Shown here: positions 705 to 59,838 of the stretch, one piece after another
Numbering within the stretch: position 1 is the first letter of the stretch
Layout: each line of letters opens with the position of its first letter
Source: Veillonella intestinalis
GTDB lineage: Bacteria > Bacillota > Negativicutes > Veillonellales > Veillonellaceae
Direction of reading: 5' to 3'
Length of the DNA stretch: 64,000 nt
Assembly: GCF_943193155.1 (NCBI RefSeq)
Contig: NZ_CALPDB010000002.1
Location: 1 to 64,000 of the forward strand
Program-made: the position numbers and the translations under genes
Notes under the pieces: generated by a model
What the model saw: only the letters and a program-made list of their open reading frames with translations
What the model was told of the DNA's origin: nothing
The model's database searches: none

Positions 705-1577
705 CTAGTTGGCACTAGCAAAGGCTACTGCACTAAAAGCAGCCATTTGCCCCTCACCAACAGCTTTCGCAACTTGTAATGGTGTTCCAGCCACATCACC
801 AGCTGCAAAAAGACCTTTATAGTTCGTTTCCATATTGCGTCCTACTGCCACAGACGTTCCATCTAAATGAACACCTTCTACAATATTTTCAGGTGGACAA
901 GCATCACGCAAGAAAAACACGCCATCTACATCTTTAGTCCCCTCATTGGTTTCAATAGCAGTTACCTTTTGTTCACCTACAACGCCGTTTACGATAGCTC
1001 GCTTATGCACAACAACTGAAGCTGGCAACGCGGCTAACCACTCTGCAGGTAACTGTAAAGCTCCACCAATATACAAATTAATTGTTTTTGCTAATGAAGC
1101 TAATAACTCTACATCTTGTTGATACGCTAATGTATTTATATATACAGCAATATCTTTGTTTTCAAAAAAATGACCATCACAGCTAGCACAATAACTTACC
1201 CCGCGTCCTAATAAAGCACGCTCGCCTGGCACAGTTTTACTCATAGTAACACCAGTAGCTAGAATTACACTTTTTGCTTGATATACATTTTCATCAGTCA
1301 TAATTGTGAACGGCGCCCCTATAAAAACAGATTGCACTCGTTCTTTTGCAATAGTAGGTTCGTACGCCAACGTTTGTTCTAACAATTGATCCATAAAATC
1401 AGGACCACTAATGGTCATAATTCCAGGATAATTATCAATTCGGTGCGCTCTACGCAACTTATCACTAAATCCAGCGGCTTCGAAAAGAATAACAGATTTA
1501 TTATGGACACGCGCTGTAAGAGCTGCTGAAAGTCCTGCTGGGCCACCACCTACAATAGCAATATCATATACAGTCAT
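705..1577 (-). CDS. Thioredoxin-reductase-like FAD disulfide oxidoreductase lacking NADPH motifs
   Basis: The 290-residue protein starts with the FAD fingerprint GGGPAG (residues 10-15), has a redox pair C130-A-S-C133 followed by DG, and ends with GDVAGTPLQVAKAVGEG, which matches the TrxR C-terminal FAD motif. This places it in the low-molecular-weight thioredoxin reductase family. The second nucleotide fold is odd. Where TrxR has GGGDSA, about residues 143-155, it reads DIAVYINTLAYQQ, and the HRRxxxR NADP-phosphate motif is not visible either. Pyridine-nucleotide-independent relatives (ferredoxin-linked FFTR/DTR types) are known, so the electron donor may not be NADPH. It is a single gene between two terminators. 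Its start has a GAGGAAG ribosome site. Confidence 0.8.
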   Translation of the reverse strand: MTVYDIAIVGGGPAGLSAALTARVHNKSVILFEAAGFSDKLRRAHRIDNYPGIMTISGPDFMDQLLEQTLAYEPTIAKERVQSVFIGAPFTIMTDENVYQAKSVILATGVTMSKTVPGERALLGRGVSYCASCDGHFFENKDIAVYINTLAYQQDVELLASLAKTINLYIGGALQLPAEWLAALPASVVVHKRAIVNGVVGEQKVTAIETNEGTKDVDGVFFLRDACPPENIVEGVHLDGTSVAVGRNMETNYKGLFAAGDVAGTPLQVAKAVGEGQMAAFSAVAFASAN

Positions 1578-1595: not shown

Positions 1596-1632
1596 AATAA
1601 AAACTGGCTACTCGCCATTTGCAAGTAGCCAG
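1596..1632 (-). terminator. Terminator of the nitroreductase gene
   Basis: Inverted arms CTGGCTACTCGCC (1604-1616) and GCAAGTAGCCAG (1621-1632), followed on the minus strand by TTTTTATT. It separates the nitroreductase gene from the TrxR-like gene. Confidence 0.85.
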
Positions 1633-1670
1633 CATCTTCATGTGCTAAACCAAACGGTTATAAAGGTCTA

Positions 1671-2420
1671 TTAATTTTTTACATCAGAAAATTTAAAACC
1701 TTGTGCTTCTGCTTGTTGAATCAATTTTTGACGCATTGGCACTGGCTGTTTGCTAGCAATCTGTTTAGAAAAAGAATCAACACGACGATTGGTATCACGC
1801 ATATCGTAATATTGCTCCATTTCCTCATCATAATCTTCTAATAATTCCTTATACGAATCAAATACTGTATAGGAATCATCAAATACATTAGCCTCACGTG
1901 GCATTCTCGGCTTTAATTGTGGCTTTTGATTTGGTACGCCAATCCCTAAGCCTAGCATAGGGAATGTTAGCTCTGGCAATTTTAACAATTCAATCATTTT
2001 TGGCACATTATTTAAAATGCTGCCAAAGTAAACCGTACCGAACCCTGCCATTTCAGCAGCAGCCACCATATTCTGCGCAGCTAAACTAGCATCTGTCCAG
2101 CCCTGGAAAAAGCGATCACTATCACGTTCCGTATCAGATACAACCCCTTGTTCACGCGCAATTCTAGAATTACGGTACGCATCTACTAAAAATATAAATA
2201 ATTCTGGCACCCGTGCTACATATTCCTGATTACAAATTTCAGAAATTTGTGCTTTCAGTGATGGATCCACAATACGGATAATACTAAAACTTTGCATACC
2301 TTGACTACTAGCTGTACGCTTAGCTACATCTAATAAAATACTCAATTGTTGAGGTGGAATTGGACTTGATTTAAATTCACGAATAGTTCGGTGATTTAAT
2401 AATACATCAATAGGGTTCAT
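1671..2420 (-). CDS. Nitroreductase-family NADPH-dependent flavin oxidoreductase
   Basis: The 249-residue protein opens with IDVLLNHRTIREFKSSPIP, the R-x-x-R-x-F signature of FMN-binding nitroreductases. It continues with the TASSQGMQSFSII segment and the GLGIGVPNQKPQLKPRMP block typical of the NfsA/FRP-like group, which has a C-terminal extension. Such enzymes reduce nitro compounds, quinones or free flavin with NAD(P)H in the cytoplasm. The length fits the NfsA/NfrA branch. The physiological substrate cannot be read from the sequence. The gene is single, with a terminator immediately downstream. Confidence 0.88.
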   Translation of the reverse strand: MNPIDVLLNHRTIREFKSSPIPPQQLSILLDVAKRTASSQGMQSFSIIRIVDPSLKAQISEICNQEYVARVPELFIFLVDAYRNSRIAREQGVVSDTERDSDRFFQGWTDASLAAQNMVAAAEMAGFGTVYFGSILNNVPKMIELLKLPELTFPMLGLGIGVPNQKPQLKPRMPREANVFDDSYTVFDSYKELLEDYDEEMEQYYDMRDTNRRVDSFSKQIASKQPVPMRQKLIQQAEAQGFKFSDVKN

Positions 2421-8268: not shown

Positions 8269-9786
8269 TTACCAACGATGCTCATAGTATACTTGAGTCC
8301 ACATAATAACCTCTGACAAGGTTGGATGTGGCGACATTGTTTCGCCAACTGTAATCACTGAATGAGGATCCATCTTACGAACTAAGCCCTCTTGACGAAG
8401 TTGTTTAGTCAAAGTAGAACCAATTTCCTCATTAATAGGCACTAATGGTGTATCTCCGCTATTGAGTAAGTTAACAAATGGCTGGAACAAAATCGACGCC
8501 TGTGGACCAATAACATGAACGCCTAAAATGTGATTTGTTTTTGTATCGACCACAATTTTTACAAAGCCATCATTCTCATCGCCTGGATCAAAACCCATGG
8601 CAAATCCCTTAGCAGAAGATGAGTAGAAGTTCTTACCCGTTTTAACTTCATAGCCTTTTTCAATGGCTTCTTGCTCTGTTAAACCAACATGACCTACTTG
8701 AGGATATGTAAAGGTTACTGCTGGCACTAAATCATAGCGAGCCCAACGGAAGTCTTGTGGACTTGTGGCATGATATAAATTATGCGCTAAAATATCAGCT
8801 TCATAATTGGCTTTATGACGGAATGGCGCCTCCCCATTCACATCACCTAAAGCATACACACCATCTACAGAAGTTTCTAAAAATTCATTAGTAACAATCC
8901 AACCACCTCGTTTGGTTTGAATTGATGTATTCTCAAGTTTAAGTTCTTCAGTAGCTGGTTTAATGCCAGAAGCCATAAGAATTTCTTCCCCACGTATTTC
9001 ACGAACTTCACCAGTCTTACGATCACGAATTACAACAACCTTTTCGCCATTTTCTACACGCACTTCTTCAGGTTCTTGATTTAAAATAACATCAATACCT
9101 AAACGTGTAATATCTTTATAAATCTGTTCAGAAATTTCGGCATCTTCTTTAGGTAACAAACGTACATTATGCTGAATTAAAGTAACCTTCGTCCCTGCAG
9201 CAGCAAATACATGAGCAAATTCAGTCCCAATCGGGCCCCCACCCATAACTACTAAGGATTTAAGTGGAGTCTGCGGATATTTATGGCCGAATAGGCTTTC
9301 ACTACTCATATAACCAGCTTCTTCTAAGCCTTTAATAGGATTTACTTTGGTATGGCCCCCAACACCTAAAACAATAATAGGTGCTGTAATTTCTTCGGTC
9401 ACTTCTCCTGTATTTAATGTCACGGTCAATACTTTATCTTTTACAAACGTAGCGGCACCACGATACACATCTACATTATCAAACTTATCGTAATATGCTT
9501 CTACCCCTTTACTTTCATCAATTTTTTGCCATACACGTTTTGACATCAATTCCCAATCAATGATCGCTGGCTGAACTTTTACCCCAATTTTAGGTAATTC
9601 TTCAATTTCACGAACTGCATCGGCCACAGTAACCATTACCTTTGTAGGAATGCAGCCACGAGTTAAACAAGTGCCACCAAATTTGCCTTTTTCAATAATG
9701 GCTACCCGTTTACCTTTGCTAATGGCCGCATCAGCTACAATTGTAGCACCGCCAGTACCAACAACAATAATATCATATGTTTTCAT
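8269..9786 (-). CDS. Dihydrolipoyl-dehydrogenase-like FAD disulfide oxidoreductase
   Basis: The 505-residue protein has the class I pyridine-nucleotide disulfide reductase plan. It has an N-terminal FAD site, the redox-active C-x4-C in GGTCLTRGCIPTK (about residues 36-48), GGGPIGTEFAHVFAAAG for NAD(P)H near residue 180, the second FAD motif YALGDVNG, and the C-terminal HPTLSE His/Glu pair. The FAD motif reads GTGGAT rather than GAGPGG, as in the mycothione-reductase-like and archaeal branch. The CxxxxC is CLTRGC rather than CLNVGC. No 2-oxoacid dehydrogenase or glycine-cleavage genes are nearby, so the substrate is open: lipoyl protein, a low-molecular-weight disulfide or a metal are all possible. 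AGGAG precedes the ATG. Confidence 0.82.
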   Translation of the reverse strand: MKTYDIIVVGTGGATIVADAAISKGKRVAIIEKGKFGGTCLTRGCIPTKVMVTVADAVREIEELPKIGVKVQPAIIDWELMSKRVWQKIDESKGVEAYYDKFDNVDVYRGAATFVKDKVLTVTLNTGEVTEEITAPIIVLGVGGHTKVNPIKGLEEAGYMSSESLFGHKYPQTPLKSLVVMGGGPIGTEFAHVFAAAGTKVTLIQHNVRLLPKEDAEISEQIYKDITRLGIDVILNQEPEEVRVENGEKVVVIRDRKTGEVREIRGEEILMASGIKPATEELKLENTSIQTKRGGWIVTNEFLETSVDGVYALGDVNGEAPFRHKANYEADILAHNLYHATSPQDFRWARYDLVPAVTFTYPQVGHVGLTEQEAIEKGYEVKTGKNFYSSSAKGFAMGFDPGDENDGFVKIVVDTKTNHILGVHVIGPQASILFQPFVNLLNSGDTPLVPINEEIGSTLTKQLRQEGLVRKMDPHSVITVGETMSPHPTLSEVIMWTQVYYEHRW

Positions 9787-59517: not shown

Positions 59518-59838
59518 TTATAAGTGAGCTTCAATAGCTGCTTTTAATTCATTTTGTGGTACATAACCAATTTTACGGTCTACTACTTCACCATTTTTAA
59601 TAATAGCAAATGTTGGTAGTACTTCTACTTGGTATTCTTTTGCTAATTCAACAACTTCATCAGTGTTAACTTTAGCAAAAGCTACTTTATCACCTAATTC
59701 TTCAGCTAACGCTTCAAATACAGGCATCATACGTACGCAATAACCGCACCATGGAGCCCAAAAATCTACGATTGCCACTTCTTTAGATGTAATTGTTTCT
59801 TTAAAATTTGCTGTTGTTAATTCTGCAATATTTGCCAT
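59518..59838 (-). CDS. trxA: Thioredoxin with CGYC active site
   Basis: The 106-residue protein is a full-length thioredoxin: VDFWAPW then C31-G-Y-C34, AFAKVNTDEVVELAKEYQVEVLPTF with the cis-Pro, and IIKNGEVVDRKIGYVPQNEL. The usual CGPC is changed to CGYC. The residue before the second Cys strongly affects redox potential in this fold, so the protein may be more oxidising than ordinary thioredoxin. The TrxR-like gene at the other end of the window is a possible partner but is not adjacent. GGAGGG precedes the ATG. Confidence 0.93.
   Translation of the reverse strand: MANIAELTTANFKETITSKEVAIVDFWAPWCGYCVRMMPVFEALAEELGDKVAFAKVNTDEVVELAKEYQVEVLPTFAIIKNGEVVDRKIGYVPQNELKAAIEAHL

Follow-up and report, generated by a model that had tools for sequence, protein, structure and literature searches.

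The gene at the beginning of the window (by which we mean the whole stretch of DNA analysed, 64,000 nucleotides from Veillonella intestinalis) probably encodes a ferredoxin-dependent FFTR (ferredoxin-flavin thioredoxin reductase) of the clostridial/Negativicutes kind that would provide the main route to reduced thioredoxin. Its open reading frame is intact, begins with ATG and specifies a protein of 290 aa on the minus strand. An earlier note on this DNA had recognized in the product the FAD motif, the C130-A-S-C133 pair and the C-terminal FAD motif of thioredoxin reductase (TrxR), and all three are found in the 290-aa translation (Table 1). Residues G10, G12 and G15 of the N-terminal motif and both C130 and C133 are invariant across alignments A1 (11 rows) and A2 (26 rows), and residues 258-261 of the C-terminal motif read AAGD. 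The same note had reported that VYINTLAYQQ stands in place of GGGDSA and that HRRxxxR could not be seen; we find residues 145-154 at the canonical glycine-rich NADPH loop and GGALQLP (171-177) at the HRRxxxR position. The protein also carries both members of the motif set (GR/KG and FF) that PMC9025218, in its accessible part, gives for cyanobacterial FFTR.

Table 1. Coordinates of the FFTR gene, its motifs and neighbours, and the thioredoxin genes (positions in the window, except for the last row).
Feature	Position	Strand	Basis
FFTR-type flavoprotein disulfide reductase	705..1577	-	ORF, best PDB matches, tree, model
N-terminal FAD motif GGGPAG (residues 10-15)	1533..1550	-	protein sequence
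G-R-G (residues 124-126), thioredoxin-contact motif of NTR/FFTR	1200..1208	-	sequence; definition from the accessible part of PMC9025218
C130-A-S-C133 redox disulfide	1179..1190	-	protein sequence
F137-F138, second thioredoxin-contact motif	1164..1169	-	sequence; definition from the accessible part of PMC9025218
VYINTLAYQQ (145-154), where the GxGxxA NADPH loop is expected	1116..1145	-	alignment, motif scan
GGALQLP (171-177), at the HRRxxxR position	1047..1067	-	alignment, motif scan
C-terminal FAD motif GLFAAGDVAGTPLQ (255-268)	774..815	-	sequence, alignment
Nitroreductase-family protein, 249 aa, directly upstream of FFTR	1671..2420	-	PF00881
16S rRNA 5' end, downstream of FFTR, cut by contig start	1..114	-	
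Terminator/attenuator-like hairpin, 13 pairs and T-run, between nitroreductase and FFTR start	1603..1633	-	z -4.8
106-aa thioredoxin with WCGYC active site, possible electron acceptor	59518..59838	-	
Second thioredoxin, active site WCKPC	C2:212.6 kb		

Searches with the protein sequence returned Pyr_redox_2 as the best Pfam match and TIGR01292 (TRX_reduct) as the best NCBI family, the latter at 180.5 bits, which is below the equivalog cut-off of 343.45. The top three matches in the PDB were 6gnc (5.7e-57), 6gna and 6gnd (range 5.7e-57 to 3.5e-52), all of which are ferredoxin-flavin thioredoxin reductases of Clostridium acetobutylicum according to their titles; the next match was 5uth, the best NTR, at 2.4e-36. 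(The original FFTR paper appeared in PNAS in 2018.)

The earlier note had proposed placing the protein in a tree. In a tree of 86 rows a single clade, with support of 100/99, held the FFTR-like proteins of Clostridia and Negativicutes together with both PDB FFTR fragments, and the 24 NTRs fell apart from this clade; a quick tree of 76 rows gave the same grouping (SH-aLRT 99). The window protein groups with the clostridial FFTRs and away from the NTRs, and clustering with canonical enzymes did not occur. (Note that the 86-row tree took in 41 of 71 further loci, the 30 left out being distant, truncated, X-containing or near copies, as well as 13 of the 30 Negativicutes NTR loci, 29 of the 30 FFTR loci, with L071 left out, and L077; the 76-row tree was made from chosen subsets by a quick search.) The genus of the window genome forms its own group on a long stem of 0.53 changes per site in the 86-row tree, and because the nearest neighbours of this group differ between the two trees we claim no precise source for the FFTR of the genus. 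Prochlorococcus FFTRs in both trees, and a Crocosphaera relative in the 86-row tree, lie on the NTR side, in trees that had no Gloeobacter sequence and, in the case of the 76-row tree, long Prochlorococcus branches. Because the cyanobacterial sequences are placed elsewhere, the window protein is, to judge from sequence, of the clostridial and not the cyanobacterial kind. Enzymes of separate origin may share the name FFTR, and the placement of the cyanobacterial enzymes suggests, with the uncertainty that long branches bring to such sequence comparisons, repeated loss of the NADPH site.

The absence of NADPH motifs extends to the relatives of the window protein. Neither motif was found by motif scan in the 31 Negativicutes FFTR-like proteins (L047-L077, with L071 scanned to its internal stop) or in any of 15 further FFTR-like loci (L085, which has X residues, was uncounted), such that GxGxxA and HRRxxxR are both absent from 46 of the 46 FFTR-like proteins counted. 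Both motifs are present in 25 of 30 Negativicutes proteins that exceed the NCBI TrxR cut-off; the other five (322-559 aa) have glycine-rich loops of the forms GNGDAA, GGGYVA and GGGFSA, for which the scan pattern was too narrow. Negativicutes also have a third TrxB-like type (L240-L248), which is roughly 280-300 aa long, contains a CxxC, has a GxGxYALHEA-like loop in eight of nine cases, is devoid of HRRxxxR by eye, and forms one clade separate from both NTR and FFTR. In another Negativicutes family (f5), 11 of 23 FFTR homologues have lost one or both cysteines of the CxxC (L251, L252, L253, L256 and L263-L269, with the variants CAKV, CATR, CTHG, SAKV, CAKI and CAFV), and these homologues form one clade in the 76-row tree (SH-aLRT 99). 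In three genomes of that family (G009, G010 and G020) TIGR01292 matches reach 1e-44 to 1e-54 at best, short of NTR level.

Modelling of the second domain had likewise been proposed. An AlphaFold2 model obtained with the window protein and 25 relatives (mean pLDDT 92.9, pTM 0.78) was closest to solved FFTRs and not to NTRs. In a structure search in which VIA-align re-ranks Foldseek hits only, 6gnc came first (rmsd 2.9 A over 283 residues, Z 35.2), then 6gna and 6gnd, followed by two Gloeobacter structures at 4.0 A, 6xtf (a crystal of the enzyme together with its electron donor) and 5j60, and then by the Desulfovibrio TRi 5nii (5.8 A). For most of the full-length NTRs listed the rmsd was roughly 10-16 A, as their domains are placed differently. 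In the model the second domain retains its strand-helix-strand order (strand 142-147, helix 150-162) and the glycine-rich loop is gone; the predicted domain arrangement is open, as in FFTR crystals. Note that this open arrangement is supportive and no independent proof, since AlphaFold may have been trained on the FFTRs of the PDB. Sequence, tree and predicted structure all point to FFTR, and the kinship with NADPH-independent TrxR relatives that the earlier note had suggested is borne out; one refinement is that DTR, which the note listed beside FFTR, was formerly the name for cyanobacterial FFTR according to the available portion of PMC9025218.

Comparison with characterised enzymes places the window protein nearest to clostridial FFTR (6gna, 6gnc and 6gnd), with which it shares the FAD motifs, the CxxC, the lack of NADPH motifs, a similar length, the clade and the predicted domain arrangement. 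It differs from these enzymes in having only 37-38% identity, another sequence at the former NADPH loop and seven extra residues in the second domain, and in having FF at the second thioredoxin-contact site, where 6gna and 6gnc have LY; moreover, its gene is without an adjacent thioredoxin and is apparently the sole TrxR gene of its genome. Cyanobacterial FFTR, formerly DTR (Gloeobacter 5j60 and 6xtf, and Prochlorococcus), is alike in its CxxC, FAD and lack of NADPH motifs, but has a C-terminal tail with a stacking tryptophan (PMC12796991, accessible part) that is absent from the window protein, the last 100 residues of which contain no Trp. The atypical Desulfovibrio TrxR TRi (5nii) has the same low-Mr fold and is further from the window protein both in sequence (1.2e-26) and in structure. 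Canonical low-Mr NTRs share the fold, the FAD motifs and the CxxC, but they have GxGxxA and HRRxxxR, both of which the window protein lacks, and they occupy the other side of the tree. Finally, DDORs are described in the portion of PMC9025218 at hand as being without the GR/KG and FF contact motifs, whereas the window protein has both.

According to the accessible part of PMC10880999, most Negativicutes and Clostridia carry TrxBs of the NTR kind alongside others that are not NTRs and are probably FFTR, and TrxB1 of C. difficile is without NADPH motifs and clusters with FFTRs. The mechanism and open conformation of FFTR are covered in the available portions of PMC12796991 and PMC8469568; the thioredoxin reductase treated in that of PMC11633186 is streptococcal. 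Among the papers listed, none concerned a Veillonella FFTR as far as titles and opening lines of abstracts go, and the one relevant statement on Negativicutes was that of PMC10880999. What is new here is the genomic setting; the family itself is established, and TrxBs of Negativicutes that do not use NADPH are already in print.

An FFTR homologue is present in all seven genomes of the window genus. VYINTLAYQQ is identical in six of them, and in the seventh (G247; L077, 5177-6139) the protein has 320 aa, the loop differs and the second domain is longer. In four close pairs the whole gene is under purifying selection (dN/dS 0.029-0.041), and the disulfide domain is constrained in the same four pairs (dN/dS 0.026-0.074); dS was saturated in two more distant pairs. 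Its presence throughout the genus and the low dN/dS values show that the gene is no chance reading frame or sequencing error, and they speak against a pseudogene.

The gene directly upstream encodes a nitroreductase-family protein whose best NCBI match, NF008033, reaches 189.5 bits, under the cut-off of 223, and it adjoins the FFTR gene in 7 of 7 genus members. We considered a simple operon of the two genes; the adjacency across the genus is real, but the intervening hairpin speaks against it. This hairpin, which may stop or dampen transcription that runs on into the FFTR gene, is kept in six of the seven genus members and was not seen in the upstream gap of G247. Both-sided changes occur at some of its pairs, and there is one mismatch in one sequence. 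(Note that three of the six sequences are close relatives, so that this covariation reflects few independent events.) The terminator scan returned 3 matches where 1.4 were expected (sd 1.1), a mild excess, and no sigma-70-like promoter was found in the nitroreductase-FFTR gap in a scan that was uninformative, with 7 matches as against 8.3 in shuffled sequence. In one sister genome (G238) no FFTR gene separates the orthologue of the nitroreductase gene from the nearby start of the 16S gene, which argues that this is a place where FFTR was gained or lost and that the neighbourhood is independent of it. (The stretch examined in the other sister contigs did not include the 16S start.)

The window genome is 99.96% complete, and a search of it with the TIGR01292 profile gave seven matches. 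The FFTR led by a wide margin at 3.3e-53 (the runner-up had 1.1e-17) and was the only one with a TrxR-type CxxC. A second TrxR was sought among the other six and rejected, as these frames of 420-763 aa are without a TrxR-type CxxC, although one of them, of 763 aa, spans the whole profile. This 763-aa frame, a fused flavoprotein of 761 aa, resembles by eye an NfnAB-type ferredoxin:NADP oxidoreductase; it could exchange electrons between ferredoxin and NADPH and so feed ferredoxin indirectly from NADPH. The iron-sulphur FTR route was also considered and discarded for this genome, in which the catalytic subunit is absent; that subunit was found in none of the 28 family genomes and in 2 of 14 control genomes.

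Two thioredoxins are encoded in the window genome, both far from the FFTR gene, and neither lies beside it. A thioredoxin gene is close to FFTR at 5 of 18 other loci (L082-L098 and L118) and was found near none of the 31 Negativicutes FFTR loci (L047-L077), in a scan whose motif misses WCGYC and WCKPC and which covered flanks of about 1.5 kb or less for most. With the exception of L166 (WCSHC) and L153 (pattern unmatched), the thioredoxin loci of the family that were read (L153-L181) have WCGYC and not WCGPC. The WCKPC thioredoxin gene adjoins an ORF that resembles, by eye, a hydrogenase small subunit. PFOR is encoded in the genome, as is a small ferredoxin, a 61-aa ORF with two Fer4 stretches.

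In the three sister genera (g2, g3 and g4; G225-G245) each of the 21 genomes has two thioredoxin matches, and none has a match of NTR, FFTR or FTR type when all candidates are scored (loci L182-L211). TIGR01292 finds weak matches in these genomes, none better than 1.6e-19; most cover only part of the profile, and the frames that contain them measure 416-669 aa. Three of them (L182, L183 and L189) are by eye one GltD-like frame and two orthologue-like copies of a 505-aa flavoprotein of the window, all without a TrxR-type CxxC; the remaining matches were judged from frame length and profile range only. (This 505-aa protein, encoded in the window at 8269-9786, belongs with the lipoamide dehydrogenase/mycothione reductase flavoproteins and scores under the cut-off of each of the 25 NCBI families listed; frames like it rank near the top of the TrxR-profile matches in the sister genera.) In a survey of 252 Negativicutes genomes, hand counts gave an FFTR-type match in 87, of which 23 were without an NTR-level match, with thresholds (E of at most 1e-44 for FFTR, TIGR01292 weaker than 1e-70) that were set after seeing the data. 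For NTR up to eight candidates of each genome were scored, and NTR-level matches include long AhpF-like frames. Thus, having FFTR without NTR is not peculiar to the window genus, since these 23 of 87 genomes of the class are alike in this respect; the contrast with the sister genera of its own family is sharper.

Because neither an FTR nor another match with a TrxR-type CxxC is found in the genome, the FFTR would be the main route of thioredoxin reduction, and the presence of PFOR, ferredoxin and thioredoxins makes plausible a chain from pyruvate through PFOR, ferredoxin and FFTR to thioredoxin. By analogy with its characterised relatives, the enzyme would be a homodimer with ferredoxin as donor and thioredoxin as acceptor, would work by a domain swing, and would make no use of NADPH. 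In particular, oxidation of pyruvate by PFOR would reduce the small 2[4Fe-4S] ferredoxin, and reduced ferredoxin would pass electrons to the FAD of FFTR, with NADPH being no direct donor. The disulfide domain would swing in for reduced FAD to reduce the C130-C133 disulfide, and, once the domain had swung out again, the C130/C133 dithiol would reduce one of the thioredoxins, either that with WCGYC in the window or that with WCKPC elsewhere in the genome. Points that count against a ferredoxin-dependent FFTR are the remodelled second domain, the lack of an adjacent thioredoxin gene and the NfnAB-like protein; moreover, the partner could have changed, given the modest identity to the characterised FFTR fragments and the long stem of the genus.

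Such a change of partner might concern the donor, in which case an FFTR-like enzyme would receive its electrons from flavodoxin or a different carrier of low potential, with a possible link to the nitroreductase. The adjacency of the nitroreductase gene throughout the genus, the divergent second domain and the long stem speak for this proposal, but G238 keeps the nitroreductase gene beside the 16S start without FFTR, the terminator-like hairpin separates the two genes in six of seven members, and ferredoxin and PFOR are encoded; we regard it as unlikely. The acceptor might instead be a dedicated protein other than thioredoxin, as in DDOR-like or other disulfide pathways, and here the unusual active sites of the thioredoxins of the genome (WCGYC and WCKPC) and the fast-changing disulfide domain could be cited. 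Yet GRG and FF are kept, motifs that DDORs are reported to be without in what is available of PMC9025218, and the enzyme is the sole recognisable TrxR of a genome that has thioredoxins, which leaves this idea with little probability. That the protein is a normal TrxR that uses NADPH through an atypical nucleotide site is highly improbable: the overall fold is the same and TIGR01292 is its best NCBI family, albeit below the cut-off, but GxGxxA and HRRxxxR are missing, both trees place it away from the NTRs and its model is nearest to FFTRs.

A ferredoxin-dependent FFTR acting on thioredoxin is the reading that we prefer, and it can be carried further, if tentatively. Veillonellaceae might have abandoned direct NADPH-driven reduction of thioredoxin, with the window genus relying on ferredoxin only. 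Its FFTR, which evolves fast, would have a remodelled disulfide domain suited to the unusual WCGYC/WCKPC thioredoxins, and the sister genera, in which such thioredoxins are kept and no TrxR is recognisable, would use an undiscovered reductase or another reductant. We consider this extension doubtful, and the NfnAB-like protein makes it less likely because it lets NADPH and ferredoxin swap electrons. The more interesting question that these findings raise is how thioredoxin is recharged in the sister genera. A ferredoxin-dependent FFTR in the window genus would add host-associated anaerobes to the organisms with a thioredoxin system that apparently depends on ferredoxin alone, and in these anaerobes thiol repair would be tied to fermentation and not to NADPH.
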